Shown here one piece after another: positions 32,983 to 49,189 of a stretch of 64,000 nt of DNA (positions are counted from its first letter, which is position 1; every line of letters starts with the position of its first letter). The DNA lies in NCBI GenBank assembly GCA_025964675.1, contig JAOPYI010000207.1, positions 1 through 64,000 on the forward strand, given 5' to 3'. A program made the translations under genes and the position numbers. Below the pieces are notes generated by a model, which was not told where the DNA came from, made no database searches, and worked only from the letters and a program-made list of their open reading frames with translations. The DNA is from Sphaerisporangium sp. (lineage in GTDB: Bacteria > Actinomycetota > Actinomycetes > Streptosporangiales > Streptosporangiaceae).

Positions 32983-35586
32983 GTGAGAGCTATCCGCAGG
33001 TTCACCGTCCGCACCGTCCTTCCCGTGGAGCTGGCCGCCCTCGGCGAGCTCGTACAAAATCTGCGCTGGTCATGGCACCCCGAGACCATGGATCTGTTCG
33101 CGGAGGTGGATCCCGACACCTGGGAACGAGTCGGCCACGACCCGGTCGCGCTGCTCGGAGCGGTGGAGGCCGACCGGCTGGCCGAGCTGGCCCGTGATCG
33201 CAGGTTCCTCCGCAGGCTGGCCGACGCCGCGGACGACCTGCGCGAGTACATGACCGCGCCGCGCTGGTACCAGACGCTGCCCGAAGCGCCCGCCGCCGTC
33301 GGCTATTTCTCGCCCGAGTACGGCATCGCCGCCGCCCTCCCGCAGTACTCCGGAGGCCTCGGCATCCTCGCGGGCGACCACTTGAAAGCCGCCAGCGACC
33401 TCGGCGTCCCGATCCTCGGGGTCGGCCTGCTCTACCGCCACGGCTACTTCAGCCAGTCCCTGTCGGCCGAGGGCTGGCAGCAGGAGCACTACCCGAGCCT
33501 CGACCCCGGCGGCCTGCCCCTGAGCCTCCTCAAGGAGGAGGACGGCACGCCCGCCCGCGTCGCCATCCCGCTGCCCGGCGGGCGCACGCTGCACGCCCAG
33601 ATCTGGGTCGCCCAGGTGGGCCGCGTCCCGCTGCTGCTGCTCGACTCCGACGTGGCCGAGAACGACAACGCCGCGCGCGACGTCACCGACCGCCTGTACG
33701 GCGGGGGCACCGACCACCGGCTCATGCAGGAGCTGCTGCTCGGCATCGGCGGGGTGCGGGCGCTGCGCGCCTACTGCCGCGTCACCGGGCACGCCGAGCC
33801 CGAGGTCTTCCACACCAACGAGGGCCACGCCGGCTTCCTCGGCCTCGAGCGCATCCGCGAGCTGACCGAACACCGGCTGTCCTTCGACGAGGCGCTGGAG
33901 GCGGTCCGCGCCGGCACGGTCTTCACCACGCACACGCCCGTGCCCGCCGGCATCGACCGGTTCCCCGCCGAGATGATCGAGAAGCAGTTCGGCGGCGACA
34001 ATGTCTGGCCGACCGTTCCCGTGGAGCGCATCCTCGCGCTGGGCGCCGAGCCCGACTCCCCTGAGGGCGGCGGCGACACGGCGGTCTTCAACATGGCTGT
34101 CATGGGCATGAGGCTCTCGCAGCGCGTCAACGGCGTCTCCGAGCTGCACGGCGCGGTCAGCCGAGGGATGTTCCAGGGGCTCTGGCCGGGGTTCGACCTC
34201 GACGACGTCCCGATCGGCTCGATCACCAACGGCGTGCACGCCCCGACCTGGGTCGCCCGCGAGGTGATGGAGCTCGCGGGCAAGGAGCTCCCCTCGCTCA
34301 TCGAGAAGGCCCAGGGCTGGGAGGGCGTGCAGAAGCTCTCCGACGAGGACATCTGGGCCATCCGGGGTCGGCTGCGCCGTCAGCTCGTCGACGCGGCCCG
34401 CGACCGGCTGCGGGCTTCCTGGCGTGCCAGGGGAGCCTCCACGGCCGAGCTCGGCTGGATCGACGAGGCCCTCGACCCGGAGGCGCTGACCTTCGGCTTC
34501 GCGCGGCGTGTTCCCTCGTACAAGCGGCTCACGCTCATGCTGAAGGACCCCGACCGCCTCAGGGAGCTGCTGCTCAGCCCCGACAAACCCGTCCAGATCG
34601 TGATCGCCGGCAAGGCCCACCCGGCCGACGAGGGCGGCAAGCGGCTGATCCAGCAGATCGTGAAGTTCGCCGACCAGGAGGACGTGCGCCACCGCATCGT
34701 CTTCCTGCCCGACTACGACATGAACCTCGGCCAGCTCATGGTCCAGGGCTGCGACGTCTGGATGAACAACCCGCTGCGCCCTCTGGAGGCGTGCGGCACC
34801 TCCGGCATGAAGGCCGCTCTCAACGGCGGGCTCAACCTGTCCATCAGGGACGGCTGGTGGGACGAGTGGTTCGACGGCAACAACGGCTGGGCCGTCCCGA
34901 CGGCCGACGGCGTCGAGGACCCCGACCGCCGTGACGAGCTGGAGGCCGGCGCACTGTACGACCTGATCGAGCGCGAGGTCGCCGACCGCTTCTACGACCG
35001 TACGGGCGGCGAGCATCCCCGCCGCTGGCTCGACATGGTCAAGCACACGCTCAGCTCGCTCGGGCCGAAGGTCCTCGCGGGCCGCATGCTCCGCGACTAT
35101 GTCGTGGACCTTTACACCCCGGCCGCCGGGTCGGCGCGCGAGCTTTCCAAGAGCGACCACGCGAGAGCGCGAGAGTTCGCCGCCTGGAAGCTGCGGGTCA
35201 CCCGCGCCTGGCCCGGCCTTCGGGTGGAGCACATCGAGGCGTCCGGCATCGGGGACACCCCGGAGCTCGGGGCGGCGATGGAGGTCCGCGCGACGATCGC
35301 GCTGGGCGAGCTCTCCCCGGACGACCTGAGCGTGCAGGCCGCGTACGGCAAGGTGGGCGTGCACGACGAGCTGATCGGCCCGTCGTACGTCACGCTCTCG
35401 GTCGAAGCGGTGGGGGACGACGGCAAGGCGACCTACACCGGCGTCGTGCCGCTCGATCGCACGGGCGCCTTCGGGTACACCGTCCGGGTCGTGCCCGCCC
35501 ATCCGCTGATGTCGTCTCCGGCCGAGCTGGGTCTCATCGCCGTCCCCGAGGAGCCCGTCGGGATGACCAACGGCACGCTGCGCTAG
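32983..35586 (+). CDS. glgP: Alpha-glucan phosphorylase, GT35
   Basis: An 867-residue phosphorylase that releases glucose-1-phosphate from alpha-1,4-glucan. It has the N-terminal DUF3417 segment (VQNLRWSWHPETMDLF), GIAAALPQYSGGLGILAGDHLKAASDLG, the phosphate site region and the PLP Lys610 in GTSGMKAALNGGLNLSIRDGWWDEWFDG. This is the alpha-glucan/maltodextrin phosphorylase type, not the glycogen phosphorylase of enterics. It starts GTG 32983 without a ribosome site. It diverges from glgE, so synthesis and breakdown share a control region. Confidence 0.93.
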   Translation: MRAIRRFTVRTVLPVELAALGELVQNLRWSWHPETMDLFAEVDPDTWERVGHDPVALLGAVEADRLAELARDRRFLRRLADAADDLREYMTAPRWYQTLPEAPAAVGYFSPEYGIAAALPQYSGGLGILAGDHLKAASDLGVPILGVGLLYRHGYFSQSLSAEGWQQEHYPSLDPGGLPLSLLKEEDGTPARVAIPLPGGRTLHAQIWVAQVGRVPLLLLDSDVAENDNAARDVTDRLYGGGTDHRLMQELLLGIGGVRALRAYCRVTGHAEPEVFHTNEGHAGFLGLERIRELTEHRLSFDEALEAVRAGTVFTTHTPVPAGIDRFPAEMIEKQFGGDNVWPTVPVERILALGAEPDSPEGGGDTAVFNMAVMGMRLSQRVNGVSELHGAVSRGMFQGLWPGFDLDDVPIGSITNGVHAPTWVAREVMELAGKELPSLIEKAQGWEGVQKLSDEDIWAIRGRLRRQLVDAARDRLRASWRARGASTAELGWIDEALDPEALTFGFARRVPSYKRLTLMLKDPDRLRELLLSPDKPVQIVIAGKAHPADEGGKRLIQQIVKFADQEDVRHRIVFLPDYDMNLGQLMVQGCDVWMNNPLRPLEACGTSGMKAALNGGLNLSIRDGWWDEWFDGNNGWAVPTADGVEDPDRRDELEAGALYDLIEREVADRFYDRTGGEHPRRWLDMVKHTLSSLGPKVLAGRMLRDYVVDLYTPAAGSARELSKSDHARAREFAAWKLRVTRAWPGLRVEHIEASGIGDTPELGAAMEVRATIALGELSPDDLSVQAAYGKVGVHDELIGPSYVTLSVEAVGDDGKATYTGVVPLDRTGAFGYTVRVVPAHPLMSSPAELGLIAVPEEPVGMTNGTLR

Positions 35587-35702
35587 GACAGGCCACTACA
35601 AATCGCTTAAATGGGGGCATTTGTTTCGAATGTATCGACTGCCAACTGGGCAGGGCTTGACGGAGGCGACGCGATTTCATCCGTGAAGGAGCGTGATCCG
35701 TC
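35587..35702. other. Short gap between glgP and the debranching gene
   Basis: No gene. AAGGAG at about 35686 lies 12 nt before the ATG 35703, which is a long spacing. An AT-rich patch (AAATCGCTTAAATGGGGGCATTTG) may hold a promoter. Confidence 0.4.
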
Positions 35703-37856
35703 ATGGACGGCTGGACTTTCGAGGGCCAACCGGGGGCGTTGGGGGACACCACGACCACGCTGGTCGAGGGTGGATCGTTCTGCGTCTGCCAGCGGAACGG
35801 CGACATCCTGCCGGGCGGGGCCCAGGGCGTGTACTACGCCGACACCCGCCTGGTGTCCCGCTGGGAGCTGCGCATCGACGACGCGCCCCTGGAGAGCATG
35901 AAGGTGGTGCCGGGGGAGCCGTACCACTCCGCATTCCTCGCCAGGACCCCGCCCCGCCCGGGCAGGGCCGACAGCACCATGCTGGTGATCAGGGACCGCT
36001 ACATCGGCGGCGGGCTCCGCGAGGATGTCACGCTGCGTAACCTCGCTGACGAGGCGGCCGGGTGCCTGGTCACCCTCCTGGTCGCCTCCGACGTGGCCGA
36101 CCTGTTCGAGGTCAAGGCCCACCGCATCCAGCACGTTGTGGACATCGAGACCATGGTCGACCGGAGCGGACTGAAGATCGTCTCGGCGAGCAGGTCCCGG
36201 GGGGCACGGGTGATCGCGGAGTGCGAGGAAGCGGAGTTCGAGGCGATCCCGGGTCTGCTGACCTTCAAGACGGTGGTCCCCGCGCGCAGCCAATGGCGGG
36301 TGACCCTCCAGGTGAATCCCATCCTCGACGGCGAGGAGGCACCGGCCTGGTTCTCCACGAGGCACCCAGTCGAGCACGCCGAGCCCGCCATGCGCCTGGC
36401 CGAATGGCTGCGGAGCAGCCCGTCCATGAGCACCACGAACGTCGTCCTGGCGGAGGCGCTCCGCAGGTCCAGGACCGATCTCGGGAGCCTGCGGCTCTTC
36501 GAGAAGGACCATCCGGACGACCTTCCCTCGATCGCCGCCGGGGCGCCGTGGTTCATGACCCTCTTCGGCAGGGACTCCCTGCTGACCTCCTGGATGGCGC
36601 TCCCGCTCGACCAGACCCTCGCCCTCGGGACGCTCCGCCGCCTCGCCGACCTGCAGGGCACCAAGGTCAACCTGCTCACCGAGGAGGAACCCGGCAAGAT
36701 CCTGCACGAGCTGCGGTACGGCGTGGAGCCGGGGGCGCCCGCCTTCGCCGGCGGCCAGCCGTACTACGGGTCGGTCGACTCGACGCCGCTGTTCGTCATG
36801 CTGCTCGGCGAGCTGCGCCGATGGGGCCTGCACGCCGACGAGGTGTCCCGGTTCCTGCCGCACGCCGACGCGGCGCTGGGCTGGATCGAGAACTACGGCA
36901 TGCGCGACGGGTTCCTGTCGTACCGGCGCAAGACCGACCGCGGCCTGGTGAACCAGGGATGGAAGGACTCCTTCGACGGCGTCAACTACGCCGACGGCAG
37001 CCTGGCGAGGCCCCCCATCGCCCTGGCGGAGGCGCAGGGCTACGTCTACGGGGCCTACGTCGCGCGCGCCAACCTCGCCCAGGACCTCGGTGACACCGAG
37101 ACGGAGCGGCGCTGCGAGAAGCAGGCCGTCGTCCTGCGCGAGGCCTTCAACGAGCGGTTCTGGATGCCGGACAGGGGCTACTTCGCGATCGGGCTGGACG
37201 GGGAAGGGCGGTTGATCGACTCGCTCGCCTCCAACATGGGCCACTGCCTGTGGACGGGGATCGTGGACGAGGACAAGGCGCGATCGGTGGCGGAGCACCT
37301 GCTCTCGCCCGAGATGTTCAGCGGGTACGGCGTGAGGACCCTCGCCTCGAGCATGGGCGCCTACAACCCCATGAGCTACCACAACGGATCGGTCTGGCCG
37401 CACGACAACGCGATCATCGCGGCCGGGCTGATGCGCTACGGCTTCGTCGAGGAGGCGCAACGGATCGCCAAGGGCCTGCTGGACGGGGCGCACGCGTCCG
37501 CGGGCCGCCTCCCTGAGCTCTTCTGCGGCTTCGAGCGGGAGGAGTTCCCGACGCCCATCCCGTACCCGACGTCGTGCGCGCCCCAGGCGTGGGCAGCGGC
37601 CTCGCCCATCCACCTCGTACGGTCGCTGCTGCGCTTCGACCCGTGGGTGTCTCGCGGCAAAGTCTGGCTCGCGCCCGCCCTGCCGGAGGGGTTCGGGCTG
37701 CTCCAGGTGTCGAACCTGCCCGTCGGTGAGTCCAGGATTATGGTGAAGGTACAAGAAGGCGATGATTCCGCCATCGTCTGCGGTCTTCCCGCCGGGGTCG
37801 AGCTGATCAACCAACCTCGCCCGCCGACCCTGATCTCGATGCCCGGCTCCGACTGA
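35703..37856 (+). CDS. Amylo-alpha-1,6-glucosidase (glycogen debranching-type)
   Basis: A 717-residue protein with the N-terminal glycogen-debranching (GDE_N) domain, opening LVEGGSFCVCQRNGDILPGGAQGVYYADTRLVSRW, and a C-terminal (alpha/alpha)6 barrel. The barrel has PWFMTLFGRDSLLTSWMALP, GWKDSFDGVNYADGSLARPPIALAEAQGYVYGAY and MSYHNGSVWPHDNAIIAAGL. Family members remove alpha-1,6-linked glucose, though some act on other glycosides. It follows glgP by 116 bp and would relieve branch points left by the phosphorylase. Confidence 0.85.
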   Translation: MDGWTFEGQPGALGDTTTTLVEGGSFCVCQRNGDILPGGAQGVYYADTRLVSRWELRIDDAPLESMKVVPGEPYHSAFLARTPPRPGRADSTMLVIRDRYIGGGLREDVTLRNLADEAAGCLVTLLVASDVADLFEVKAHRIQHVVDIETMVDRSGLKIVSASRSRGARVIAECEEAEFEAIPGLLTFKTVVPARSQWRVTLQVNPILDGEEAPAWFSTRHPVEHAEPAMRLAEWLRSSPSMSTTNVVLAEALRRSRTDLGSLRLFEKDHPDDLPSIAAGAPWFMTLFGRDSLLTSWMALPLDQTLALGTLRRLADLQGTKVNLLTEEEPGKILHELRYGVEPGAPAFAGGQPYYGSVDSTPLFVMLLGELRRWGLHADEVSRFLPHADAALGWIENYGMRDGFLSYRRKTDRGLVNQGWKDSFDGVNYADGSLARPPIALAEAQGYVYGAYVARANLAQDLGDTETERRCEKQAVVLREAFNERFWMPDRGYFAIGLDGEGRLIDSLASNMGHCLWTGIVDEDKARSVAEHLLSPEMFSGYGVRTLASSMGAYNPMSYHNGSVWPHDNAIIAAGLMRYGFVEEAQRIAKGLLDGAHASAGRLPELFCGFEREEFPTPIPYPTSCAPQAWAAASPIHLVRSLLRFDPWVSRGKVWLAPALPEGFGLLQVSNLPVGESRIMVKVQEGDDSAIVCGLPAGVELINQPRPPTLISMPGSD

Positions 37857-37858
37857 TC

Positions 37859-39046
37859 ATGATGACGACCTTGAGCGGGCTCGGCGGGGGTCTGAGGACG
37901 CCTGGGCTCCGGGGGGAGGTGGGCTCCGACATGGCCACACCGATCGGTGTCACCGGGCGGCGGCATTGTGCGCGAGATGCCGGGCGATCCGGCCCCCTGC
38001 GTATCGCGATGATCGCTCCGCCGTGGTCGGAGGTGCCCCCGAGCGGTTACGGCGGCATCGAGGCGATGCTGTACGACCTCGTCGGCGGCCTGATCCGTCT
38101 GGGCCATGAGATCACCCTGATCGGGGCGGGCAGGACCACCACCAAGGTTCCGTTCCTGCGGACCTTCCTGCGGGCGCCGTCCGAGCGCATCGGCGAGACG
38201 ATGCCGGAGGTGCTGCACGCGGCGCTGGCGGCCCGCATGGTGTCCCGGCTGGACGCCGACATCGTGCACGACCACACGCTGGCGGGGCCGCTGGCCGCCA
38301 TGGGCAGGCCCATCCCGACCGTCGTGACGTGTCACGGCCCGGTGGACGGCGAGCTGGGGGAGTATTACCGCACCTTCGGCGATGACATCTCCCTGGTCTC
38401 GATCTCCCTCGCCCAGCGGACCTTCGCCCCGGACCTCAACTGGGTCGGGCAGGTGTACAACGCCGTGGACACCCGGACGTACCCGTTCACCGACCGCAAG
38501 GAGGACTGGGTCCTTTGGATCGGGCGGTTCGCCGGTGACAAGGGGGCCCACCTGGCCATCGACGCCGCCCGCGCCGCGGGCCGCCGCATCGTGCTCGCGG
38601 GCAAGCTCGTCGAGCCATCGGAGCACGCCTACTTCGAGGAGCACATCCGCCCGCGGCTCGGGCCCGACGCGCGGTACGAGGGGGAGGCGGACATCGTGCG
38701 CAAGCGCCAGCTCATGGCGGCGGCACGCTGCCTGCTCTTCCCCATCACCTGGCAGGAGCCCTTCGGCCTGGTGATGATCGAGGCCATGGCCTGCGGGACC
38801 CCGGTGGTCGCGTTGGGGCTCGGGGCCGTGCCTGAGGTGGTGGTGGACGGCGTGACCGGGTTCATCCGGCGGTTCCCTCACGAGCTGCCGGAGGCCATCG
38901 AGGCCGTAGGCGATCTGAGGCCGAGGGACAGCCGCAGGCACGTCGAGCGCGACTTCGACGTCATGTCGATGGCGGTGGGGTACGACCGCGTCTACCGCCA
39001 GGTCGTCACGCGGGCCGCGTCGCTGCCGGGCCCCCGCGTCGGATGA
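37859..39046 (+). CDS. Glycosyltransferase family 4 (GT-B)
   Basis: A 395-residue glycosyltransferase. The N-domain has PPSGYGGIEAMLYDLVGGLIRLGHEITLIG and the C-domain the nucleotide-sugar site EPFGLVMIEAMACGTPVVAL-GLGAVPEVVVDGVTGF. The acceptor and sugar are unknown; GT4 members near glycogen genes sometimes build alpha-glucans or related polymers, and one could be GlgM-like. It starts 2 nt after the debranching stop (ATG 37859 or 37862), so coupled expression is likely; ATG 37931 is an alternative after GGGAGG. Confidence 0.82.
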   Translation: MMTTLSGLGGGLRTPGLRGEVGSDMATPIGVTGRRHCARDAGRSGPLRIAMIAPPWSEVPPSGYGGIEAMLYDLVGGLIRLGHEITLIGAGRTTTKVPFLRTFLRAPSERIGETMPEVLHAALAARMVSRLDADIVHDHTLAGPLAAMGRPIPTVVTCHGPVDGELGEYYRTFGDDISLVSISLAQRTFAPDLNWVGQVYNAVDTRTYPFTDRKEDWVLWIGRFAGDKGAHLAIDAARAAGRRIVLAGKLVEPSEHAYFEEHIRPRLGPDARYEGEADIVRKRQLMAAARCLLFPITWQEPFGLVMIEAMACGTPVVALGLGAVPEVVVDGVTGFIRRFPHELPEAIEAVGDLRPRDSRRHVERDFDVMSMAVGYDRVYRQVVTRAASLPGPRVG

Positions 39047-39132: not shown

Positions 39133-39906
39133 ATGACGGACTTCGTACGTGTCGAGGTCAGCGGCAGGGTCGCGACCATCCGGCTGGACCGGCCGAAGAT
39201 GAACGCCCTCAACGGGCAGGCCCAGGAGGAGCTCGGCGTGTGCGCCCGCCAGGTGGACGCCGATCCTGGGGTGCGCGCCGTGGTGATCTACGGGGGTGAG
39301 CGGGTGTTCGCCGCCGGGGTGGACGTCAAGGAGATGGCCGACATGACTTATGCGGATATGTCGGCGCATTCAAGTGCGCTGCAGGCCTGTTTCACCGCTG
39401 TGGCGAAGATCGGCAAGCCGGTGGTGGCGGCGATCACGGGATACGCCCTCGGGGGTGGCTGCGAGCTCGCGCTCTGCGCTGACTTCCGCGTCGCCGGGGA
39501 GGGGGCCAAGCTAGGCCAGCCCGAGATCTCGCTCGGCATCATCCCCGGAGCGGGCGGCACCCAGCGGTTGCCCCGCCTGATCGGCCCCGCCCGTGCCAAG
39601 GACCTGGTATTCACGGGCCGCCATGTGGACGCCGCCGAGGCGCTCGCCATCGGCCTGGTCGACAGGGTCGTCCCCGATGCCGACGTGTACGCCGAGGCGG
39701 TCGCCCTGGCAGAGCGGTTCGCGGACGGGCCGGCCATCGCGCTGCGCGCGGCCAAGCAGGCCATCGACCACGGCCTCGACGTAGACCTCACCACGGGCCT
39801 GGAGATCGAGCGGCTCCACTTCTCGGCCCTGTTCGCCACCGAAGACGGCCAAGCCGGCCTCCGCGCCTTCACCGAGAAGACCAAACCGGAGTTCACCGGC
39901 CGCTGA
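39133..39906 (+). CDS. Enoyl-CoA hydratase/isomerase family protein
   Basis: A 257-residue crotonase-fold enzyme. The oxyanion-hole motif ALGGGCELALCADFRVA and the catalytic Glu region GQPEISLGIIPGAGGTQRLPRLIG are intact, so hydratase activity is likely. The chain-length preference is unknown. ATG 39133 follows GAGGAGGGCGTC. It is alone, with about 86 bp upstream and 129 bp downstream, and could serve fatty-acid or sterol ring degradation. Confidence 0.88.
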   Translation: MTDFVRVEVSGRVATIRLDRPKMNALNGQAQEELGVCARQVDADPGVRAVVIYGGERVFAAGVDVKEMADMTYADMSAHSSALQACFTAVAKIGKPVVAAITGYALGGGCELALCADFRVAGEGAKLGQPEISLGIIPGAGGTQRLPRLIGPARAKDLVFTGRHVDAAEALAIGLVDRVVPDADVYAEAVALAERFADGPAIALRAAKQAIDHGLDVDLTTGLEIERLHFSALFATEDGQAGLRAFTEKTKPEFTGR

Positions 39907-40021
39907 CCCACTCCCGGCTCAGTGCGGTGCCGCGACCGTCCACCGCGCAGCGGCGCCGTCAGCACCGAAAATGTGACGTAACGGTATTCGGTGGGAATTC
40001 GGGGAGATCATGTTTTACCGC

Positions 40022-40027
40022 TAGGGT
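40022..40027 (+). promoter_or_regulatory. -10 element TAGGGT for the PP-loop operon
   Basis: TAGGGT lies 8 nt before ATG 40036, the same geometry as upstream of glgP, and no ribosome site is seen. The operon may start with a leaderless mRNA. Confidence 0.5.
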
Positions 40028-40035
40028 GACCGGTC

Positions 40036-40404
40036 ATGGCGCGGTTTGTAATGCGCGTCCTGGCACCCTTGCGGGTCCGGCGCGCCATACTGGGCCGGTT
40101 CGACGGCCGTTACGTCACGCGGGCCGATCACCGGCAGGACGTCCGGGATTCGCTGTGGGAGGTCCAGGCGCTCAAGCGGGAGGTCGCGGCGCTGCGGCGC
40201 GAGGTCGACCAGTTGCGCCAGCGGGCGGCGAGCACGACCAAGCCCTCCACCGACCCGGCGCTCGCGGCCAAGGTCGAGGACGCCCACCGGCTCGCCACGG
40301 AGACGGCCTCGGCAGTGGACCACGTGCTCCAGGCCGAGGTTCTGATCTGGCAGGCCATCGACACGATGCGCGAGGCCGGGGGTTCGGACAAGGCGGCCCC
40401 ATGA
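40036..40404 (+). CDS. Small coiled-coil protein, first gene of the PP-loop operon
   Basis: A 122-residue protein I cannot place in a family. A basic start (MARFVMRVLAPLRVRRAILGRF) is followed by a clear heptad-rich coiled coil at about residues 30-70 (VRDSLWEVQALKREVAALRREVDQLRQRA) and a second helical stretch (KVEDAHRLATETASAVDHVLQAEVLIW). No transmembrane helix or signal peptide is seen. Its stop overlaps the PP-loop gene start (ATGA). A scaffold or regulator role is possible but unproven. Confidence 0.65.
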   Translation: MARFVMRVLAPLRVRRAILGRFDGRYVTRADHRQDVRDSLWEVQALKREVAALRREVDQLRQRAASTTKPSTDPALAAKVEDAHRLATETASAVDHVLQAEVLIWQAIDTMREAGGSDKAAP

Positions 40405-41642
40405 GGGTGAGCTGGACGTCCGATGGGGATCTCCGGCTGCTGGGCCTCCGGCTGGATCCCGGTGAGGATCTCACCGGCACCGTCACCGACGGCCAGCGGG
40501 TGGAGCTCGCCACCGACACCTGCCACGTACGACTGCCGCGCCCCGCGTCCCCCCGTGAAGTGTCCATCCATCCTGACCTGCTCGCCCTCGCCGCGTGGAC
40601 GGTCGTCGCTCCCTGGACGGCCGACAGGATCGTCTTCGACCGGCCGATCTCCTCCGAGCTGGCCGCCGCCCTCCACAGCGGCTGGGGCGTCGAGGCCGGG
40701 CCGGTCGGCGAGGCGCCCCGGGCACCGGGCACCGGGCTCGCGATCTCTTACAGCGGGGGCGCCGACTCGGCGGCCGTGGCCGGGATCCTGCCGGACGCGC
40801 CACTGGTCCACTTCCGCCGGGTGAGCCATCCCCGGGTCCCGAACCGGTGGACGCACTACCGGTCCGACGTGCTCGCCGAGCTGGCGGAGAAGACCGGCAG
40901 GGATGTGACCACCGTCGAGTCGGACCTGGAGTTCCTGCTGCGGCATCCCCGGCCCGGATACCCCGAGCACCACGCCGTGATGATCGGTGCCGTTCTCCTC
41001 GCGGATACCATGGACCTCGGTGGTGTGGCCCTGGGCTACGAGCTCGGCTCGCGTTGGCTGGGCGGCGGCCGGTACGTCCACAGGTACACGCCCGACAACC
41101 CCATGTGGTCGGCTCACGGGCCGTGGGGCCGCCTGTTCGCCTCGGCCGGGCTTCCTCTCGTCCTCCCCGTCGGCGGGATAAGCGAGGCGATGACGATGCG
41201 GCTGGCGCTCGGATCCCACCTGCGCGAGCAGGTGCGCTGGTGCCTGCGCGGCGACAGCCACGGCCCCTGCGGCCGGTGCGGCAAGTGCCTGTACAAGGAG
41301 CTCATCCAGGCCGCCGTCGAGCGGCGCCCGATGCGTACGACGATCACGGCGGACCGGCCGGTGGCCCGCAAGTGGCAGCAGCCCCCGCCGTACGGGGGCC
41401 AGGAGATGATCGAGTACGGCTGCGCCCACGTCCCCGGCATCGAGGACACCCCCTTCGCCAAGGCGGCCGGGTACCTCCAGACGACCCGCGAATCCACCGA
41501 ATGGCTGGAGCGGTGCTACCCTCCGGCCGTCGAGGAGATCCCCGGACCATGGCGGAAGGGGATCGAGGCGATGATGCGTGAGCGGTTCGGCTTCATGCGT
41601 CCGGAGGACATGGAGCGGGTGGAAAGCTGGGGACAGCGATGA
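40401..41642 (+). CDS. PP-loop ATPase-type protein with CXXCXXC site (MurL/QueC-like)
   Basis: A 413-residue protein. Residues 1-112 are a separate N-terminal domain; from 113 the PP-loop SYSGGADSAAV (Ser118-Ser123) begins a nucleotide-binding domain of the ATP-pyrophosphatase type. Cys281, Cys290, Cys293 and Cys296 (CLRGDSHGPCGRCGKCLYKEL) resemble a zinc site as in QueC, and the overall plan recalls the glutamyl epimerase MurL. It is unlikely to be a QueC orthologue: the N-domain and length differ and no queuosine genes are adjacent. It overlaps both neighbours by 4 bases. Function unknown; the tie to a D-aminopeptidase hints at cell-wall or D-amino-acid chemistry. Confidence 0.6.
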   Translation: MRVSWTSDGDLRLLGLRLDPGEDLTGTVTDGQRVELATDTCHVRLPRPASPREVSIHPDLLALAAWTVVAPWTADRIVFDRPISSELAAALHSGWGVEAGPVGEAPRAPGTGLAISYSGGADSAAVAGILPDAPLVHFRRVSHPRVPNRWTHYRSDVLAELAEKTGRDVTTVESDLEFLLRHPRPGYPEHHAVMIGAVLLADTMDLGGVALGYELGSRWLGGGRYVHRYTPDNPMWSAHGPWGRLFASAGLPLVLPVGGISEAMTMRLALGSHLREQVRWCLRGDSHGPCGRCGKCLYKELIQAAVERRPMRTTITADRPVARKWQQPPPYGGQEMIEYGCAHVPGIEDTPFAKAAGYLQTTRESTEWLERCYPPAVEEIPGPWRKGIEAMMRERFGFMRPEDMERVESWGQR

Positions 41643-42481
41643 AGGTTTACGTGTCGGTCGACATGGAGGGCGTGAGCGGGCTCACCGACCCGGAGGAGAT
41701 GCACGCCGGAGGCCGTGGCTACGAGCGTGGCTGCGAGCTGATGACCGCCGACGCCAACGCCGTCGTGGCGGGAGCCTTCGAGGCGGGCGCCTCCGCCGTG
41801 ATCGTCAACGACGCCCACGGCTCGACCAAGAACCTCCGAGTCGACCTGCTCGACGCGCGTGCCTCGCTGATCCGCGGCCCCGGCAAGCCGATGCGCATGG
41901 CGCAGGGCCTGTCCGCCGACTTCCAGGCCGCCTGCTTCGCCGGCTACCACGCACGGGCCGGCATCCAGCACGGAGTGCTCAACCACACGTGGATGGGCAA
42001 AGAGATCCACAACATCTACCTCAACGGCGAGGTCTGCGGGGAGACCCGGCTGGTCGCCGGGTTCGCGGGGTTCCTCGGCGTGCCGGTGGCACTGGTGACC
42101 GGCGACGAGGCGGTGTGCGAGGAGGCGCGGGCGCTCCTCGGCGACGTCGAGACCGTCGCGGTCAAGAAGGGCATCGACAGGTTCGCCGCCGAGCTGCTGC
42201 CGCCCAGCGTCTCCCAGGCGCTGATCCGTGAGGCCGCCGCGCGTGCGCTGAACCGCCTGAGCGACTTCCGGCCGCACGAGGTCACGCCGCCGTTCACGCT
42301 CGGCGTCGAGTGGAACTCCACGGCCATCGCCTCGGGCTGCTCCCTCATCCCCGGCACCCGGCAGGTGGGTCCGCGGCACACCGAGTTCACCACCGACGAC
42401 TTCCGCGACATCATGGGCCTGCTCGGCGTCTTCGCGATGATCGCGGGCCAGGTGGCCTGCGGCAGCGGCGTGTACGGCTGA
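41639..42481 (+). CDS. D-aminopeptidase, M55 family (DppA-like)
   Basis: A 280-residue zinc peptidase. MKVYVSVDMEGVSGL gives the metal ligands Asp8 and Glu10; His60 (NDAHGS) and His104 (GYHARAG) follow at the positions of B. subtilis DppA. HGVLNHTWMG supplies the active-site His region and NGEVCGE the next acid. DppA cleaves D-amino-acid-containing peptides such as D-Ala-D-Ala. It is translationally coupled to the PP-loop gene (ATGA). The peptide source, for example wall turnover, is not evident. Confidence 0.9.
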   Translation: MKVYVSVDMEGVSGLTDPEEMHAGGRGYERGCELMTADANAVVAGAFEAGASAVIVNDAHGSTKNLRVDLLDARASLIRGPGKPMRMAQGLSADFQAACFAGYHARAGIQHGVLNHTWMGKEIHNIYLNGEVCGETRLVAGFAGFLGVPVALVTGDEAVCEEARALLGDVETVAVKKGIDRFAAELLPPSVSQALIREAAARALNRLSDFRPHEVTPPFTLGVEWNSTAIASGCSLIPGTRQVGPRHTEFTTDDFRDIMGLLGVFAMIAGQVACGSGVYG

Positions 42482-42485
42482 CGCT

Positions 42486-44147
42486 GTGGAGAAAGACGGG
42501 TTACCGCGGCACTCTGACACCCTGACGCGGCGATCGTTGCTCGTCGGGATCGGTGCGGCAGGTGGCGCGGGCGCCATGTACGCCGCGATGGGAGTGCTGG
42601 GACTCGCGCCCTCCAAGGAGACGGGACCCGTACCCACCGTCGGCGGGGCCGCCGCCCCTGCGCCGTACGTCCCGCCCCAACGGTCCGACTTCTCCCTGCG
42701 CGGTGGCAGGCCCGCGACGGTGCTCGTGCTCGGTGCGGGCGTGGCCGGGCTGGCCTGCGCGTACGAGCTGGGCAAGGCCGGGTACGACTGCACGGTGCTG
42801 GAGGCGCGCGACCGGGTGGGCGGGCGCAGCATGACCCTGCGTGGCGGCGACGCCGTGACCGAGCTGCCGGCCCGGGTCCACTCCGGCACCACACAGGCCG
42901 CGGCCACCCTGGGAGCCGGTGAGACGCAGCAGGTGACCTTCGGCGCCGGAACGTACTTCAACGCCGGCCCTGCCCGGATCGCCCAGTGGATGGTGACGCT
43001 GGACTACTGCCGTGAGCTTGGCGTCCCTCTCGAGGTGTTCGTCAACGCCAACGCCAGCGCCTACATCCTCACAGAGGGCATGAAGGCGCCCGTACGCGCC
43101 CGTACGGCCCGCGCGGACGCCTACGGGTACGTCTCCGAACTGCTGGCCAAGGCGACCGACGCGGGGGCCCTCGACGCCCGCCTGAGCGACGCCGACAAGG
43201 AACGCCTGCTGGACTTCCTGTCCGACTTCGGGGAGATCGGCGAATCATACGGGTACACCGGCGGCGATCGGCGGGGCTACCGCGTGAACCCCGGGGTCGG
43301 GGCGGGCACCGGTCTCGGCACGCCGCCGTCGCTGACCGAGGTGCTGAGCCAGGCTCTCGGCCGGATGCTGACCATGGACGCCGGCTACGAGCAGGCCATG
43401 CCGATGTTCCAGCCCGTGGGCGGGATGGACGGCATCGTCCGCGCACTGGCGGCCCAGGTGGGTGCCGAACGCATACGGACCGGCACACGGGTGACGAGGA
43501 TCATGAACAGGCCGGAGGGCGTGGAGGTCACCTTCGACGGCGGCGCCCCCCTGAAGGCGGACTACTGCGTCGCGGCCCTTCCCCCGCACCTTCTCGCCAG
43601 GATCCCCGGCAACCTCGGCGCCGACGTCAGGACGGCGCTCGCCACCCCGGTCCCGATGTCGGCGGGCAAGCTCGGGCTGGAGTACGGCCGGCGCTGGTGG
43701 GAGATCGAGGACCGCGTGTACGGCGGCGCCACCGAGACCGACCTGGACGTGGGCCACATCTGGTACCCCTCCTACGGGTTCCACACCGAGCGCGGCCTGA
43801 TCGTGGGCTACTACAACACAGGCGAGGACGCCGAGACGTACAACGCGCTGCCCCACCGCGAGCGCCTGCGCCGGGCCCTCGCGCAGGGCCGCAGGGTCCA
43901 CGGCGGGAAGTACGGCACCGACCTGATCGCGAGCGTCTCGGTCGCCTGGCGGCGGCAGCCGCACATCGAGGGCTCCTGGGTTCGCTGGCCGTCGCTGAGC
44001 GGGTTCACGCTTCTCCAGCGTCCCGCCGGGCGGGTGTACTTCGCGGGCGACTGGCTGACCCACCTGATCGCCTGGCAGGCGGGGGCCTTCGAGTCCGCCC
44101 GTAAGGTGGTCACCGAGCTTCACCACCGCGTACTGAAGGAGGGGTGA
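42486..44147 (+). CDS. Flavin amine oxidase, Tat-exported
   Basis: A 553-residue FAD enzyme of the monoamine/L-amino-acid oxidase type. Arg15-Arg16 (TLTRRSLLVGIGAAGGAGAM) is a Tat signal, so it is probably exported folded with FAD. The dinucleotide site ATVLVLGAGVAGLACAYELGKAGYDCTVLEARDRVGGRS starts near residue 78, and the C-terminus has GRVYFAGDWLTHLIAWQAGAFES. GTG 42486 is 4 bp after the D-aminopeptidase stop, so it belongs to the operon. It may oxidise an amino acid or amine released by the peptidase; the substrate is unknown. Confidence 0.85.
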   Translation: MEKDGLPRHSDTLTRRSLLVGIGAAGGAGAMYAAMGVLGLAPSKETGPVPTVGGAAAPAPYVPPQRSDFSLRGGRPATVLVLGAGVAGLACAYELGKAGYDCTVLEARDRVGGRSMTLRGGDAVTELPARVHSGTTQAAATLGAGETQQVTFGAGTYFNAGPARIAQWMVTLDYCRELGVPLEVFVNANASAYILTEGMKAPVRARTARADAYGYVSELLAKATDAGALDARLSDADKERLLDFLSDFGEIGESYGYTGGDRRGYRVNPGVGAGTGLGTPPSLTEVLSQALGRMLTMDAGYEQAMPMFQPVGGMDGIVRALAAQVGAERIRTGTRVTRIMNRPEGVEVTFDGGAPLKADYCVAALPPHLLARIPGNLGADVRTALATPVPMSAGKLGLEYGRRWWEIEDRVYGGATETDLDVGHIWYPSYGFHTERGLIVGYYNTGEDAETYNALPHRERLRRALAQGRRVHGGKYGTDLIASVSVAWRRQPHIEGSWVRWPSLSGFTLLQRPAGRVYFAGDWLTHLIAWQAGAFESARKVVTELHHRVLKEG

Positions 44148-44150
44148 CCC

Positions 44151-44675
44151 ATGATGCTGGGCACGCTCGACTGGGTGTCTGCCGGGGAACGGAACGACCT
44201 GCTCGCCGCCCCGGTGGCACGGGCCGTCGCGGACATGGCCGACGAGGTCGCGGTCGCGCCGATCGACCCGGCGCTCGCCGACACCGCCGCCTTCTGCGAG
44301 CGGTACGGCGTGGCGCTCGAGGAGTCGGCCAACTGCGTGATCGTGGCGGCGAAGCGGGGCGGCGAGACGCGCTACGCGGCCGTCATGGTGCTCGCGACGA
44401 TGCGGGCCGACGTCAACGGGGTGATCCGCCGCCACCTGGACGCCCGCAAGACCTCGTTCGCCCCGCAACAGGACGCGGTCGCGATGTCGGGCATGGAGTT
44501 CGGAGGCATCACCCCCCTCGGCCTGCCCGAAGACTGGCCCGTGCTGGTGGACTCCGAGGTCGCGCGGCAGCCGTACGTCGTCATCGGCAGCGGCATCAGG
44601 GGCTCCAAGCTGGCGCTCGCAGGTGAGGCCTTGACCCGCCTGAAGACCGCTGAAGTGCTGCCTCTCGCCCAGTGA
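44151..44675 (+). CDS. YbaK/ProX-type aminoacyl-tRNA deacylase domain protein
   Basis: A 174-residue protein with the YbaK/EbsC fold. The nucleotide-free editing domain is suggested by EESANCVIVAAKRGGETRYAAVMVLATMRADVNGVIRRHLDARKTSFAPQQDAVAMSGMEFGGITPLGL, close to the Cys-tRNA(Pro) hydrolases, whose conserved Lys and Gly-Met region it retains. ATG 44151 follows GGAGGGG. It starts 3 bp after the amine oxidase stop and may be the fifth gene of that operon, though a link in function is uncertain. Confidence 0.78.
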   Translation: MMLGTLDWVSAGERNDLLAAPVARAVADMADEVAVAPIDPALADTAAFCERYGVALEESANCVIVAAKRGGETRYAAVMVLATMRADVNGVIRRHLDARKTSFAPQQDAVAMSGMEFGGITPLGLPEDWPVLVDSEVARQPYVVIGSGIRGSKLALAGEALTRLKTAEVLPLAQ

Positions 44676-44931
44676 CGTCCCAGGCTGTAAGACTTTGCGG
44701 ATATGGGAAACCCTTGGGGCCACTTCATCCGTTGTATTACCGGGGATGTGGCCTCATGGTTCATCTAAGGGGCGGTGTTCAAGCCGGTATGGTGCTATGT
44801 GCCGTCAAGGGCCGAGGGTAAATGCCCACGGTGATTTCCGGTTCGGGCATTGCGCACAGTGAGCGAAATGTGACAATTGGAGCAAGGTGCTTGCCTCCGG
44901 ACACCAGCGCCGGGGCACCGCCGGAGATCAG
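44676..44931. other. Gap before the first kinase gene, with an inverted repeat
   Basis: No gene in 256 bp. The repeat GGCCA-(CTT)-CATCC / GGATG-TGGCC (44718-44753) forms a 10-bp bulged stem and may be a terminator for the operon to the left, although it lacks a T-run. A promoter for the kinase operon must lie to its right. Confidence 0.45.
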
Positions 44932-47112
44932 ATGAATCAGGACGACCGATTGGGCCCCTACCGACTGCTTCGGCGGCTCGGTGAAGGCGGCATGGGCGTG
45001 GTGCATCTCGCGCTCGACTCCCAAGGCAGGCAGGTCGCCGTCAAGGTGCTGCGCGCCGAGGTCACCGGGGACGACGTCGCGCGCAGGAGGCTCGCGCGCG
45101 AGGTCGAGACCATGCGCCGCGTGCGGAGCAGGCACATCGCCGAGGTGGTCGACGCCGACGTGACCGGCAGCCGCCCGTACATCGTGACCCGTTACGTCCC
45201 GGGCCAGCCCTTGGACGACACGGTCAAGCAGGACGGCCCGCTCGCCGTCGGCCCGCTGCTCCGGCTGGCCCACGGCGTGGCCTCGGCGCTCGCGACCGTG
45301 CACGCGGCGGGGATCATCCACCGCGACCTCAAGCCCGGGAACGTGCTGATGCTCGACGGTGAGCCCGTTCTCATCGACTTCGGCATCGCGCAGGCCGTCG
45401 ACGCCACCCGGCTGACCCAGACCGGCATGTTCATCGGCACCCCCGGCTACCTGGCCCCCGAGATCATCGAGGGCCACGAGGCGGGTCCCCAGGTCGACGT
45501 GCACGCCTGGGCGGGCACGATGCTGATGGCCGCCACCGGCCAGCCGCCGTTCGGCAAGGGCACGCTGGAGATGGTCTTCTACAACATCACGGCGGGCAGG
45601 GCCAACGTCGACGCCGCACCCGCCATCCTTCGGCCGCTGCTCCGCGCGGCCTTCCAGCGCGATCCCGCCAAGCGGCCCACCGCCGCCGACCTCGCCGCGC
45701 AGCTCTCCCGGCTCGTCGCCCCGCGCCCGGGCCAGGGCCGTCCGAACGTTCCCGACGAGATCCTCACGGTGCCCGACATGTCCGGCACCCCGGCGACGGG
45801 GACGCACGAGCCGCCGCCCACGGGGACTTCCGAGCCCCGCCGCGCGGGGCAGTCGCCGGTGCCGGAGCCGCGTCCCGGCGCGGCGGCGCCCGAGGAGTAC
45901 GTCTCGCTGCTCAGCGACGCGCCGCAGGGCTCCGGAGCGGGTGACCCGTGGCCGACGGTGCGGGTGACCGGCGATGAGCTCCGCAACGCGGGCATCGCCT
46001 ACGAGAGGCCGACGGTCCGGCCGGGCGCAGGTGTTCCCGCCGGGACGGGTGCCGCCGACCTTCATCGGCCCGGCTCACCGGGCGTCCCGGCCGAGCGGGC
46101 GGGGCAGGGCGACGTGCCGACCCGGTTCGCCCCGCCGACCCCGTCCCAGCCGTGGAAGGCCGCCCAGCCCTTTCCGCTCGACCAGGGCGAGGTGCCGACC
46201 AGGCGGGTCAGGCCGGAAGAGCTGAGCGATCTCGACGCCCAAGCCAAGGCCTACCGCGCCACCCCGGCCGCCCCCGCGACGCCGACGGGCGCACCCGGTC
46301 CGGCGCGGCCGGCACCGCTGGCCCCGCCCGGGCAGTCCTCGCCCGCCGCGCGGCCGTACCACCACCAGGCGCTGTTCGAGCAGCCTCCGGACATGTTCGA
46401 GCAGACGCCGCACATCCGGCAGCAGCAGCCGGCCGCGCAGTACGTCCCGACCGTGCACCTGCCGCCGGAGGCGACGCCGGGCTTCGGCCCGCACCACGGG
46501 CGGGGCGACCTCCGGCGCTCCCCGGTGTACGGCGTGGCGAGCGTGCTCGCGCTGATCGTCGTGGTCGGCGCGGCCGTCGTGGCCCCGGTGCTGGTGTCGG
46601 TGCCGGTGCTCCTCGCGGCCGTGCTCCTGAGGGCCGCCGACATCGCCCAGCCGAGGCTCGACGCCAGGCGCCCCGCGAGCGCCGCCGCGAGCGACGTGCT
46701 GCGCGTCCTCGGGCAGCCCCTGGCGCTGGTCAAGTCCGTCGGCGTCACGGTCGCGCTCGTGCCGTACGCCCTCATCCTCGGCGTGCCGGTGGCGCTGGTG
46801 CTGACCTTCCTCGTGAAAACCGTGCCCGCGGCCACCGTTCTGAGCTGGGGAGTCGCCGTCTCCCTCTGGATCATCTGCGCGGGGCCGGGTGTCGAGGGGC
46901 CGGGCCGCCAGATGAGCAGGACGCTCGCCTCCGTCTTCCCGTCGAAGGGCGCCGCCACGGCGCTCGCCTGGGTTCTCGGAGTGGTGGCCGCCCTTGTGGC
47001 GGTATACACGGTCAGCACGCTCGTCTGGCCGTCGATGGAGGCACTCTGGAATCCAGTGGACATGGGTATGTGGCGGCAACGAGTTGAAGACCTGCGGTCG
47101 CAGGCGGGATGA
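44932..47112 (+). CDS. Ser/Thr protein kinase 1, with C-terminal membrane module
   Basis: A 726-residue Hanks-type kinase. The catalytic domain covers about residues 9-275: GEGGMG, Lys38 (VAVKVL), HRDLKPGN (Asp132), DFG (Asp149) and the activation loop GTPGYLAPE. A Pro/Gly-rich linker to about residue 525 follows, then several hydrophobic segments (YGVASVLALIVVVGAAVV; LVKSVGVTVALVPYALILGVP; AATALAWVLGVVAALVAVYTV). There is no PASTA repeat. ATG 44932 follows CCGGAG with 5 nt. Its stop overlaps the start of kinase 2 (ATGA). Confidence 0.88.
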   Translation: MNQDDRLGPYRLLRRLGEGGMGVVHLALDSQGRQVAVKVLRAEVTGDDVARRRLAREVETMRRVRSRHIAEVVDADVTGSRPYIVTRYVPGQPLDDTVKQDGPLAVGPLLRLAHGVASALATVHAAGIIHRDLKPGNVLMLDGEPVLIDFGIAQAVDATRLTQTGMFIGTPGYLAPEIIEGHEAGPQVDVHAWAGTMLMAATGQPPFGKGTLEMVFYNITAGRANVDAAPAILRPLLRAAFQRDPAKRPTAADLAAQLSRLVAPRPGQGRPNVPDEILTVPDMSGTPATGTHEPPPTGTSEPRRAGQSPVPEPRPGAAAPEEYVSLLSDAPQGSGAGDPWPTVRVTGDELRNAGIAYERPTVRPGAGVPAGTGAADLHRPGSPGVPAERAGQGDVPTRFAPPTPSQPWKAAQPFPLDQGEVPTRRVRPEELSDLDAQAKAYRATPAAPATPTGAPGPARPAPLAPPGQSSPAARPYHHQALFEQPPDMFEQTPHIRQQQPAAQYVPTVHLPPEATPGFGPHHGRGDLRRSPVYGVASVLALIVVVGAAVVAPVLVSVPVLLAAVLLRAADIAQPRLDARRPASAAASDVLRVLGQPLALVKSVGVTVALVPYALILGVPVALVLTFLVKTVPAATVLSWGVAVSLWIICAGPGVEGPGRQMSRTLASVFPSKGAATALAWVLGVVAALVAVYTVSTLVWPSMEALWNPVDMGMWRQRVEDLRSQAG

Positions 47113-49130
47113 CGGGGGAAACGGTGCCGGAGACGCTTGACAGACTCGGTCCCTACCGGCTGTTGCGCCGGCTCGGCGAGGGCGGGATGGGCGTCGTCCA
47201 TCTCGGCCTCGACGGGGAGGGCAGGGAGGTCGCCGTCAAGGTGCTCCACCCTCACGTGGCGGCCGACCTCAAGGCCCGCGACCGCCTGACCCGCGAGGTC
47301 GAGACCATGCGGCGGGTGCGCAGCGCGAGGGTCGCCGAGGTGCTCGACGCCGAGCTCACAGGGGCCACGCCCTACATCGTCACCAGGTTCGCCCCCGGGC
47401 GCACGCTGGAGGAGACCGTCCTGTCGGACGGCCCGCTGTCGCAGCGCGAGGTCGTACGGCTGGCGCGCGGCCTGTCCGAGGCGCTGATCGCGATCCACGC
47501 CGCCGACGTGATCCACCGTGACTTCAAGCCGGCGAACGTCATGCTGGTCAACGGCGATCCGCTGGTCATCGACTTCGGCATCGCCCACCTGGTCAACGCC
47601 ACCAGGCTCACCCAGACCGGCATGTTCGTCGGCACCCCTGGCTACCTCGCGCCCGAGATCATCAGGGACGAGGAGATCACCCAGGCGGCCGACGTCCACG
47701 CCCTGGCGGCCACGGTGTTCTTCGGGGCGACCGGAAAGCCGCCGTTCGGGTCGGGCTCCTTCGAGTCGGTCTGTTACAACATCATGGAAGGCCGGGCCAA
47801 CATCGAGCAGGCGCCGCCCTGGCTGCGCGGCTGGCTGCGCGCGGCCTTCGCGGTGAACCCGGGCGCCCGTCCGAACGCCCAGGGCCTGCTGGCGATGGCG
47901 AGGTCCCTCGACCCGAGCGTGACGGCCTTCCAGGAGACCTCGGCCGGCCACACCCGCAGGCTCGACAGCGCCCAGGGAACCGGACGCGTCCCCGACGGCA
48001 CCCGCGTGCTCAACGGGTCCGCGCCGGACGCCACCCACGTGCTGAACGGCTCGGCGCCCGGCCTGCCGGGGGTGACGGACGACCTCCCGCCGACCAAGCG
48101 CACCAAGCCGGCGTCGGAGGACAGCTACTCCGACCTGCTGCCTCCCGTGCGCTACGCCGAGCCCGATCGCAGGCGCAACCGCGCCGACGCGCCCGGCGCC
48201 TTCGCGCCGCCCCCGCCCGCCTCCGGATACCCCGCCGCGCCGTACGCCCCTCCCGGGCAGTACGCGCCCGTGCCCTACCCAGACCAGCGGGTGGCAGGCC
48301 CCCCTCCACCGGCCTACCCAGGGTCCACCCGGGGCTCCATGGCGCCGCCGACCCACGGCGTGCCGTACGCCCCCGACCAGCGGCGAGGGGCGTACCCCCC
48401 CGAGCAGGGACGCGGGCCGTACCCTCCCGCGCAGGAGCGCAGGCCAGAGCCGGAGCGCGACCGCCCGCCCTATCGCACCGGGCACCCGCTGCTCGCCGCC
48501 CTGCTGCTGGTGGTGGCGGTCACGGGCGCGCGCATGCTGCCCGTGCTGGTCGGCGTCTTCATGGTGGTCGCGGTGCTCTGCCTGCGCGTCGGCGAATACC
48601 TGTGGAGCGACCTGGCGCAGCGCCGCTCGGTCCGGGGCAACAGCGCGAGCGATCCGCTGCTGGCCCTTCTCGGCACGCCGTGGGCGCTCATCAAGGCCGC
48701 GCTCATGACGATCGTCGTCACGCCGCTGGCGGGGATGTTCGCGCTGTGCGTCTGGGGCGCGCTGCACTTCCTAGCCGGGCTGACCACCGACACCGCAGCC
48801 GCCTACGGGGCGTCCGCGTTCGTCGGCGGCCTGTTCCTGCTGCCCGGCGGCGGGCCGCCCCGCAAGGCGGTGGCGCGCACCCTTACCGCGGTGATCCGGA
48901 GTCCCGGGGCGGGGATGGTGGTTACGATCATCGTCGGCACCCTGGCGTTCTTCGCCCTGGTGAGCGCGATGTCCGCCCTTCCGTCCTGGGTGCCCTGGCA
49001 GGCGCCGTCGAAGGCGATCAACACGCTGAGCGACCACGCCAGGAGCAGTGCGACCGGCCTTATGAGCGGCCTGGTGAAGGACCTGATGGACAATCTGGGC
49101 CTCGGGTTCCTCGCATTCTGGGGCAACTGA
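47109..49130 (+). CDS. Ser/Thr protein kinase 2, with C-terminal membrane module
   Basis: A 673-residue kinase, closely paralogous to the previous one. GEGGMG, Lys44 (VAVKVL), HRDFKPAN (Asp138), Asp155 (IDFGIAHL) and GTPGYLAPE are intact. The linker to about residue 455 is very rich in Pro, Tyr and Arg, and the membrane module has several helices (HPLLAALLLVVAVTGARMLPVLVGVFMVVAVLC; LTTDTAAAYGASAFVGGLFLLPGGGPPRKAVARTLTAV). The GPG-to-RTL segment recurs in kinase 1, so the module is homologous. It starts at ATG 47109 overlapping the previous stop. Confidence 0.88.
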   Translation: MTGETVPETLDRLGPYRLLRRLGEGGMGVVHLGLDGEGREVAVKVLHPHVAADLKARDRLTREVETMRRVRSARVAEVLDAELTGATPYIVTRFAPGRTLEETVLSDGPLSQREVVRLARGLSEALIAIHAADVIHRDFKPANVMLVNGDPLVIDFGIAHLVNATRLTQTGMFVGTPGYLAPEIIRDEEITQAADVHALAATVFFGATGKPPFGSGSFESVCYNIMEGRANIEQAPPWLRGWLRAAFAVNPGARPNAQGLLAMARSLDPSVTAFQETSAGHTRRLDSAQGTGRVPDGTRVLNGSAPDATHVLNGSAPGLPGVTDDLPPTKRTKPASEDSYSDLLPPVRYAEPDRRRNRADAPGAFAPPPPASGYPAAPYAPPGQYAPVPYPDQRVAGPPPPAYPGSTRGSMAPPTHGVPYAPDQRRGAYPPEQGRGPYPPAQERRPEPERDRPPYRTGHPLLAALLLVVAVTGARMLPVLVGVFMVVAVLCLRVGEYLWSDLAQRRSVRGNSASDPLLALLGTPWALIKAALMTIVVTPLAGMFALCVWGALHFLAGLTTDTAAAYGASAFVGGLFLLPGGGPPRKAVARTLTAVIRSPGAGMVVTIIVGTLAFFALVSAMSALPSWVPWQAPSKAINTLSDHARSSATGLMSGLVKDLMDNLGLGFLAFWGN

Positions 49131-49189
49131 CCCCCGGAGTGTGCGTGGCACGCGTCCGGGGCACGATTGATGGCGCCGGAAGGAGTGGC

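Follow-up and report, generated by a model that had tools for sequence, protein, structure and literature searches.

Do five genes packed almost end to end at positions 40,022 to 44,675 of a 64,000-nucleotide (nt) stretch of Sphaerisporangium sp. DNA (contig JAOPYI010000207.1; the whole stretch is called the window here) belong together, and what does the PP-loop protein encoded among them do? The genes encode a small coiled-coil protein, a PP-loop ATPase of the DUF6395 family, an M55 D-aminopeptidase, a flavin L-amino-acid oxidase and a YbaK-like protein. A reading of the letters alone (the original prediction) had suggested a route handling D-amino-acid peptides, in which a released D-residue would finally be oxidized outside the cell. 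Our analysis of the locus and its relatives is best read as describing a family-wide operon with a leaderless promoter, in which the coiled coil and the DUF6395 protein may form an AMP-forming, carboxylate-activating pair that works on amino-acid or peptide substrates, an interpretation on which we are evenly divided between belief and doubt.

A five-gene operon with a conserved promoter

All five genes are read from the plus strand. The first open reading frame (ORF), the coiled-coil gene (40036..40404; 122 amino acids [aa]), encodes a protein that matched no Pfam family above the cut-off and that in most relatives ends in a conserved C-terminal motif, HRLA.E...LQ.EVL.WQ.ID (40285..40362, plus strand, in the window). 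It is followed by the PP-loop ATPase gene (40401..41642; 413 aa), assigned by its ORF and by Pfam to DUF6395 (PF19932), and by the gene for the M55 (DppA-like) D-aminopeptidase (41639..42481; 280 aa; PF04951, E value of 1e-93; 1hi9, E value of 9e-49). The last two genes encode the flavin L-amino-acid oxidase of the RoLAAO type with a Tat-like signal (42486..44147; 2jae, E value of 4e-129; PF01593, Amino_oxidase, E value of 2e-43) and a protein with a YbaK-like aminoacyl-tRNA editing domain (44151..44675; 174 aa; PF04073, tRNA_edit, E value of 5e-20). ORFs and junctions agree with the original prediction: the first two junctions, at 40401 and 41639, are 4-bp ATGA overlaps, and the next two starts lie within 4 bp of the preceding stops, after gaps of 4 and 3 bases. 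Comparison with three relatives indicated purifying selection on all five genes (dN/dS of 0.135 to 0.340). The operon is real and, by its conservation at related loci (below), no chance grouping.

A possible leaderless promoter had also been predicted at the front of the locus, where the hexamer TAGGGT (40022..40027, plus strand) lies 8 bases before the coiled-coil start codon as a −10 box. Generic sigma-70 and terminator scans of positions 39850 to 45000 gave no match, the front −10 box included. The same place was compared in 73 sequences, drawn from the window and 79 loci with a coiled-coil gene after exclusion of uncertain starts and short flanks. A TANNNT box began exactly 14 nt upstream of the coiled-coil start in 48 of them, the window included, and at any other offset in at most 3, which revealed that the operon opens with a conserved leaderless promoter. 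Judged by eye, the box also persists at loci that have no PP-loop gene.

Linkage of the operon genes in Streptosporangiaceae

When named genomes were searched with an alignment of DUF6395, 106 stretches were confirmed, and 80 loci were kept for counts; from genome names and taxonomy, we take these to be Streptosporangiaceae, two being metagenome-assembled genomes and one titled only Actinobacteria. According to tblastn, the coiled-coil gene is present at 79 of these 80 PP-loop loci, the M55 gene at 71, the oxidase gene at 75 and the YbaK-like gene at 73. The loci lacking a gene include one at a contig end (L098), one apparently rearranged downstream (L087) and a solitary second copy (L062). 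The flanks are conserved as well, with an upstream enoyl-CoA hydratase (ECH) gene at 65 loci, inverted in one, and downstream kinase genes at 76. Spacing, which depends on start codons picked by rule, is tightest around the PP-loop gene: the coiled-coil gene lies within 20 bp of it in 75 of 79 loci, and the M55 gene overlaps it by exactly 4 bp in 45 of 71 and lies at most 100 bases away in 65 of 71, whereas the M55 and oxidase genes are at most 100 bases apart in 47 of 68. We therefore regard the coiled-coil, PP-loop and M55 genes as the core within the family, to which the oxidase and YbaK-like genes are more loosely attached.

DUF6395 was found in only 2 of 396 genomes drawn from the phylum, the window's own genome and one other, and in 34 of 100 genomes drawn from the family, two of the 34 carrying remnants only. 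The latter sample was sorted by hand. Of the 32 genomes whose PP-loop gene is intact, 28 had an M55 orthologue (at least 74% identity), as did 5 of the 66 that lack the gene; for an oxidase at the locus, the counts were 30 of 32 and 4 of 66, respectively. The two genomes with PP-loop remnants (G034 and G096), placed outside both groups, kept M55 in 2/2 cases and the oxidase at the locus in 0/2.

Losses at the locus show which genes can do without which. In four genomes of two genera (L145 to L148), the PP-loop gene has been lost and the M55, oxidase and YbaK-like genes have been kept. Judged by eye, the coiled coil of these four, which lies behind a −10 box of the same kind, ends after 64 to 66 residues, so that the conserved C-terminal motif is gone, although the upstream starts chosen by the gene caller yield longer ORFs; one deletion could have removed both the PP-loop gene and the end of the coiled coil. 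In two genomes with intact genus-mates, the PP-loop gene is reduced to a C-terminal scrap. Both keep M55 and YbaK, but of the oxidase nothing is left except 22 residues in one of them. Among further loci with no PP-loop gene, L149 and L152 retain M55 together with YbaK, and L150, L151 and L153 to L156 retain M55 alone of the five. No operon gene strictly requires another.

Beyond the operon, serine/threonine kinase genes stand in a row downstream (window positions 44932 to 50410), two of them assigned by family scan and a third by eye; the first two are the ones that recur at 76 of the 80 loci. Upstream, positions 30520 to 39046 hold glycogen-type genes (GlgE on the minus strand, a phosphorylase and a debranching-like enzyme) and a GT4 glycosyltransferase. 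The glycogen genes were considered as members of the system and dropped, because the gap between the ECH and coiled-coil genes reaches 7,068 bp.

The DUF6395 protein and its other genomic contexts

The PP-loop protein matched DUF6395 with 225.3 bits (cut-off of 25; E value of 7e-67) and is 79 to 85% identical to five aligned Sphaerisporangium proteins (L066, L076, L091, L103 and L116). Conservation was assessed in 30 diverse members, ranging from Streptosporangiaceae to a Priestia plasmid. The PP-loop motif of the window protein, SYSGGADS (residues 116 to 123; 40746..40769, plus strand) includes G120, D122 and S123, which are invariant among these members. The CXXCXXC site of the original prediction, CGRCGKC, is equally invariant and is joined by a fourth cysteine, forming the motif C281...C290xxC293xKC296 (41241..41288, plus strand); K295 and eleven other residues are also invariant. 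By its resemblance to the corresponding motifs of QueC and MurL, the four-Cys motif probably holds a structural metal.

Searches of the PDB gave no match up to an E value of 5 with the single sequence and only weak ATRX matches with a profile (best E value of 0.044), and no NCBIfam model matched the protein (P0006) at an E value of 1. In profile comparisons, the diverse DUF6395 alignment matched QueC at 95% (E value of 6e-8, 175 columns), MurL at 93% (E value of 3e-7, 181 columns) and MnmA at 76% (E value of 2e-5), in contrast to 0.2% for reversed MurL; a narrower DUF6395 alignment gave 89% for MurL and 61% and 44% for the two other families. MurL was recognised here not through the characterised XOO_1319 but by its place beside murD in genomes with no MurI match, and copies were collected from 17 genomes. 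Between the MurL alignment and QueC, the match is likewise 93%. Taken alone, the PP-loop region prefers MnmA (83% versus 10% for MurL) and the C-terminal region QueC (72% versus 17% for MurL). The N-domain (residues 1 to 112), for which kinship with MurL or QueC had been raised, matched neither profile (0.2% and 0.3%). These profiles place DUF6395 among PP-loop families of the QueC/MurL type and show no kinship that is special to MurL.

Such a special kinship had been suggested by a MurL match of 89% against less than 2% for single QueC and ThiI sequences, and it faded once alignments of QueC and MnmA (20 and 29 sequences) were used. MurL itself was rejected as an identity, since the QueC match is equal and the window's genome (G000) encodes a MurI (E value of 1.5e-72); the neighbours of the PP-loop gene are the coiled-coil and M55 genes and not murD. 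A MurL protein found no match in this genome at an E value of 1e-6. Of the putative MurL proteins (L140 4779-6155 and the loci from 17 genomes), two that we scanned gave no Pfam match at an E value of 0.01, yet these proteins have a clear PP-loop and four-Cys motif. QueC was likewise rejected as an identity: its model TIGR00364 is without a match in G000 at an E value of 0.001, and the PP-loop protein matches no NCBIfam model. Among PHROGs, P0006 matched one QueC-like family only, over the Cys region (E value of 0.023), and P0001 gave weak coiled-coil matches. A role in defence was considered and rejected: the PADLOC defence models gave no match for P0001, P0002, P0004 and P0006, and P0003 matched a desaturase-type model (E value of 1e-29). 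A search for viral DUF6395 copies gave 86 pattern matches, none of which was confirmed. The literature searched names DUF6395 nowhere, and our searches of it brought up nothing on the combination of genes described here, in line with the original prediction, which knew of no such system.

Outside Streptosporangiaceae, DUF6395 stands in other company. An actinobacterium outside the window's class (G430), with a small genome, has four tandem DUF6395 genes (L039 8066-13690), surrounded by glycosyltransferase, methyltransferase, NAD-epimerase and ABC-2 export genes. On the opposite strand, an ORF homologous to the coiled coil separates the second copy from the third. With the coiled-coil profile it scored 63.2 bits, a level that none of 500 heptad-preserving shuffles approached (9.1 at most), and it ends in a like motif, HRLA.E...ILQ.EVL.WQ.ID. 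The occurrence of this homologue beside DUF6395 in so distant an actinobacterium indicates that the coiled coil and DUF6395 form the core pair. At an E value of 1 or better, the coiled-coil profile found nothing at the Priestia locus, at 12 loci of G430's order or at the solitary second copy L062.

Of 138 genomes from G430's order, 12 score above the DUF6395 cut-off; these include G430 itself and the partial G672. In one family of this order, DUF6395 directly follows an aldehyde dehydrogenase gene at six of nine loci, all six from one genus and thus not independent. The surrounding clusters, with families scanned in L256 and L257 and the other loci assigned by likeness, contain class III transaminase, glutamine-synthetase-like and hydantoinase/lactamase-like genes. 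One class III transaminase in L257 (2638-10301; like loci L255, L256 and L258 to L260) is fused to a glutamine amidotransferase domain, and HyuA/HyuB-type genes occur in some of the loci L255 to L260. Far beyond actinobacteria, a Priestia megaterium plasmid carries a DUF6395 gene (L250, NZ_CP109861.1, 177-1493) together, within about 18 kb, with galU and genes for a glycosyltransferase, a polysaccharide pyruvyl transferase and a UDP-glucose dehydrogenase, and near YheC/YheD genes, in a stretch that reaches the record end on one side. Only 2 of 72,556 plasmid records hold DUF6395, and the second (Nonomuraea), at 11.85 Mb, is in effect a chromosome. Outside the family, we read stretches of G430, of 12 genomes from its order and of the Priestia plasmid, several of them short contigs; tblastn at an E value of 0.001 found neither M55 nor the oxidase there. 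The pairing of the PP-loop gene with a DppA-type gene, present at 71 of the 80 family loci, did not extend to these contexts.

Candidate functions and known systems

The M55 protein has its Asp8, Glu10, His60 and His104 aligned with those of DppA (1hi9), as the original prediction had it, and its Glu135 aligned with DppA Glu133; we take the five DppA residues to be the metal ligands. Residue 1 of the M55 protein aligns with residue 1 of DppA, which argues against an added signal peptide. Export of the flavin amine oxidase, as originally predicted, is suggested by its twin-arginine motif, TRRSLLV (42525..42545, plus strand), and by an RR pattern, loosely defined, that 66 of 75 relatives have among their first 45 residues. 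Its nearest solved relative is the L-amino-acid oxidase of Rhodococcus opacus (2jae), aligned across the entire domain (residues 78 to 552), and an Arg, a Tyr and a Trp, which we take to be substrate-site residues of 2jae, are conserved. This membership in the L-amino-acid-oxidase family argues against oxidation of the released D-residue, and an oxidase acting on D-residues was dropped as the main reading. According to one report, a Rhodococcus L-amino-acid oxidase oxidizes many L-amino acids but not D-amino acids (PMC2962901). A second L-amino-acid oxidase gene, 62% identical, is present in the same genome (G000:C96:9118-10692). Of the proposed D-amino-acid peptide route, the operon, the M55 enzyme and a PP-loop family of no assigned role have stood, and the final oxidation step has not.

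The operon, its conservation, the protein families and the pairing of coiled coil and DUF6395 rest on observation; that a carboxylate is activated, that the substrate is an amino acid or peptide and that the genes have any pathway in common is inferred. By family logic, the DUF6395 PP-loop protein would split ATP into AMP and pyrophosphate and adenylate a carboxylate, with the small coiled coil acting as its partner. In the cytoplasm, the M55 enzyme, translationally coupled to the PP-loop protein in most loci, would act on peptides that contain D-amino acids, and outside the cell the Tat-exported oxidase would deaminate L-amino acids, both as accessory steps. Most likely, what unites them is a role in dealing with free amino acids or short peptides.

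Several results weigh against this proposal. An AlphaFold2 model of the PP-loop protein (pLDDT of 87, pTM of 0.87), built from 48 of 50 non-redundant sequences with L112 excluded beforehand, found nothing with Foldseek at an E value of 0.001 or better; the best hits by probability were the PP-loop enzymes MnmA/TrmU and TilS (0.63 to 0.80), and the first rows by E value were F1-ATPases with a probability below 0.1. The association of the PP-loop gene with the M55 and oxidase genes is strong, though the Fisher test run on the genome counts ignores the family tree, and since ECH and the kinases are conserved at the same loci, some of the linkage amounts to plain synteny. Of the 80 PP-loop loci, 9 have no M55 and 5 no oxidase, and both genes also occur without a PP-loop gene, so that losses run both ways; an obligate link of the PP-loop gene to the peptidase and oxidase is weakened by these single losses and by the contexts outside the family. 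Finally, the location of DUF6395 near surface-polysaccharide genes in G430 and Priestia suggests a different class of substrate.

This last point underlies one alternative, in which DUF6395 modifies cell-surface glycan precursors, for example by amidation or aminoacylation of a sugar carboxylate, and the peptidase and oxidase have nothing but the promoter in common with it. The four tandem copies of G430 and their coiled coil, which lie amid genes for glycosyltransferases, an NAD-epimerase and ABC-2 export, and the polysaccharide genes of the Priestia plasmid would fit it. We nevertheless consider it doubtful, as the neighbours in Streptosporangiaceae are a peptidase, an oxidase and a tRNA-editing domain, the upstream carbohydrate genes are of the glycogen type plus GT4, and the third context, that of the aldehyde dehydrogenase clusters, has genes of amine and lactam catabolism. 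A lineage-specific grouping of unrelated metabolic genes, kept together by common descent without a shared pathway, seems to us equally doubtful. The largely syntenic neighbourhood, the single losses, with M55 kept without the PP-loop gene and vice versa, and the different compartments inferred for the exported oxidase and the non-exported peptidase agree with such a grouping; yet 45 of 71 loci preserve the exact 4-bp overlap of the PP-loop and M55 genes, in contrast to a gap of up to 7,068 bp between the ECH and coiled-coil genes, and both PP-loop-remnant genomes with intact genus-mates lost the oxidase as well.

The remaining alternatives start from MurL. Two reports describe how it inverts a peptide carboxylate from the L to the D form while ATP is converted to AMP, adenylation being the hypothesis of those authors (PMC8788868, PMC5808125). 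The PP-loop protein could work like MurL and, driven by ATP, epimerize a peptide's C-terminal residue one way, from L to D, with M55 handling the resulting D-peptides. Coupling to a D-aminopeptidase suits this idea, as do the PP-loop and C..CxxCxKC motif shared with putative MurL proteins and the MurL profile match of 89 to 93%. Still, we judge it unlikely: QueC matches as well (95% versus 93%) and is matched by the MurL alignment itself (93%), the PP-loop region is nearer to MnmA, the C-terminal region is nearer to QueC and the N-domain is without a match, murD is not paired with it, MurI is present in the genome, and M55 is lacking at 9 of the 80 loci and in the other contexts that we read. 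Its extension, a two-protein epimerase of coiled coil and DUF6395 that cycles with the inner D-aminopeptidase and the outer L-amino-acid oxidase, strikes us as quite improbable. In such a cycle the cell would make and keep D-amino acids and destroy the L-amino acids around it, and glycan loci elsewhere would use an enzyme of this kind. Epimerization is the boldest reading of all; the profiles allow QueC-like chemistry just as well.

Whichever reaction applies, DUF6395 can now be linked to a partner protein, a promoter and an operon, all conserved, to three distinct contexts in genomes and to a few candidate reactions. An ATP-driven epimerase would be the second family of that rare type; if another carboxylate is activated, the pair would still be a new two-protein PP-loop enzyme in actinobacterial amino-acid or glycan chemistry.

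Among known systems, the M55 protein resembles Bacillus subtilis DppA (E value of 9e-49, five ligand positions aligned) and falls below the NCBIfam DppA equivalog cut-off (214 versus 430 bits). The oxidase differs from its Rhodococcus opacus relative by its Tat-like signal. The YbaK-like protein shares the PF04073 domain with YbaK/Cys-tRNA(Pro) deacylase and scores 46.6 bits, below the TIGR00011 equivalog cut-off of 153.25 bits. With QueC, the 7-cyano-7-deazaguanine synthase, DUF6395 has in common the PP-loop and a Cys-rich C-terminal motif, but it is far longer (about 413 residues versus 231 in Escherichia coli QueC), with extra N- and C-terminal parts. MurL and DUF6395 share the PP-loop motif, the four-Cys motif with a Lys before the last Cys and a similar length, whereas many further invariant residues differ; DUF6395 has no murD neighbour, occurs in a genome with MurI, has an N-domain unrelated by profile and is accompanied instead by its coiled-coil partner.

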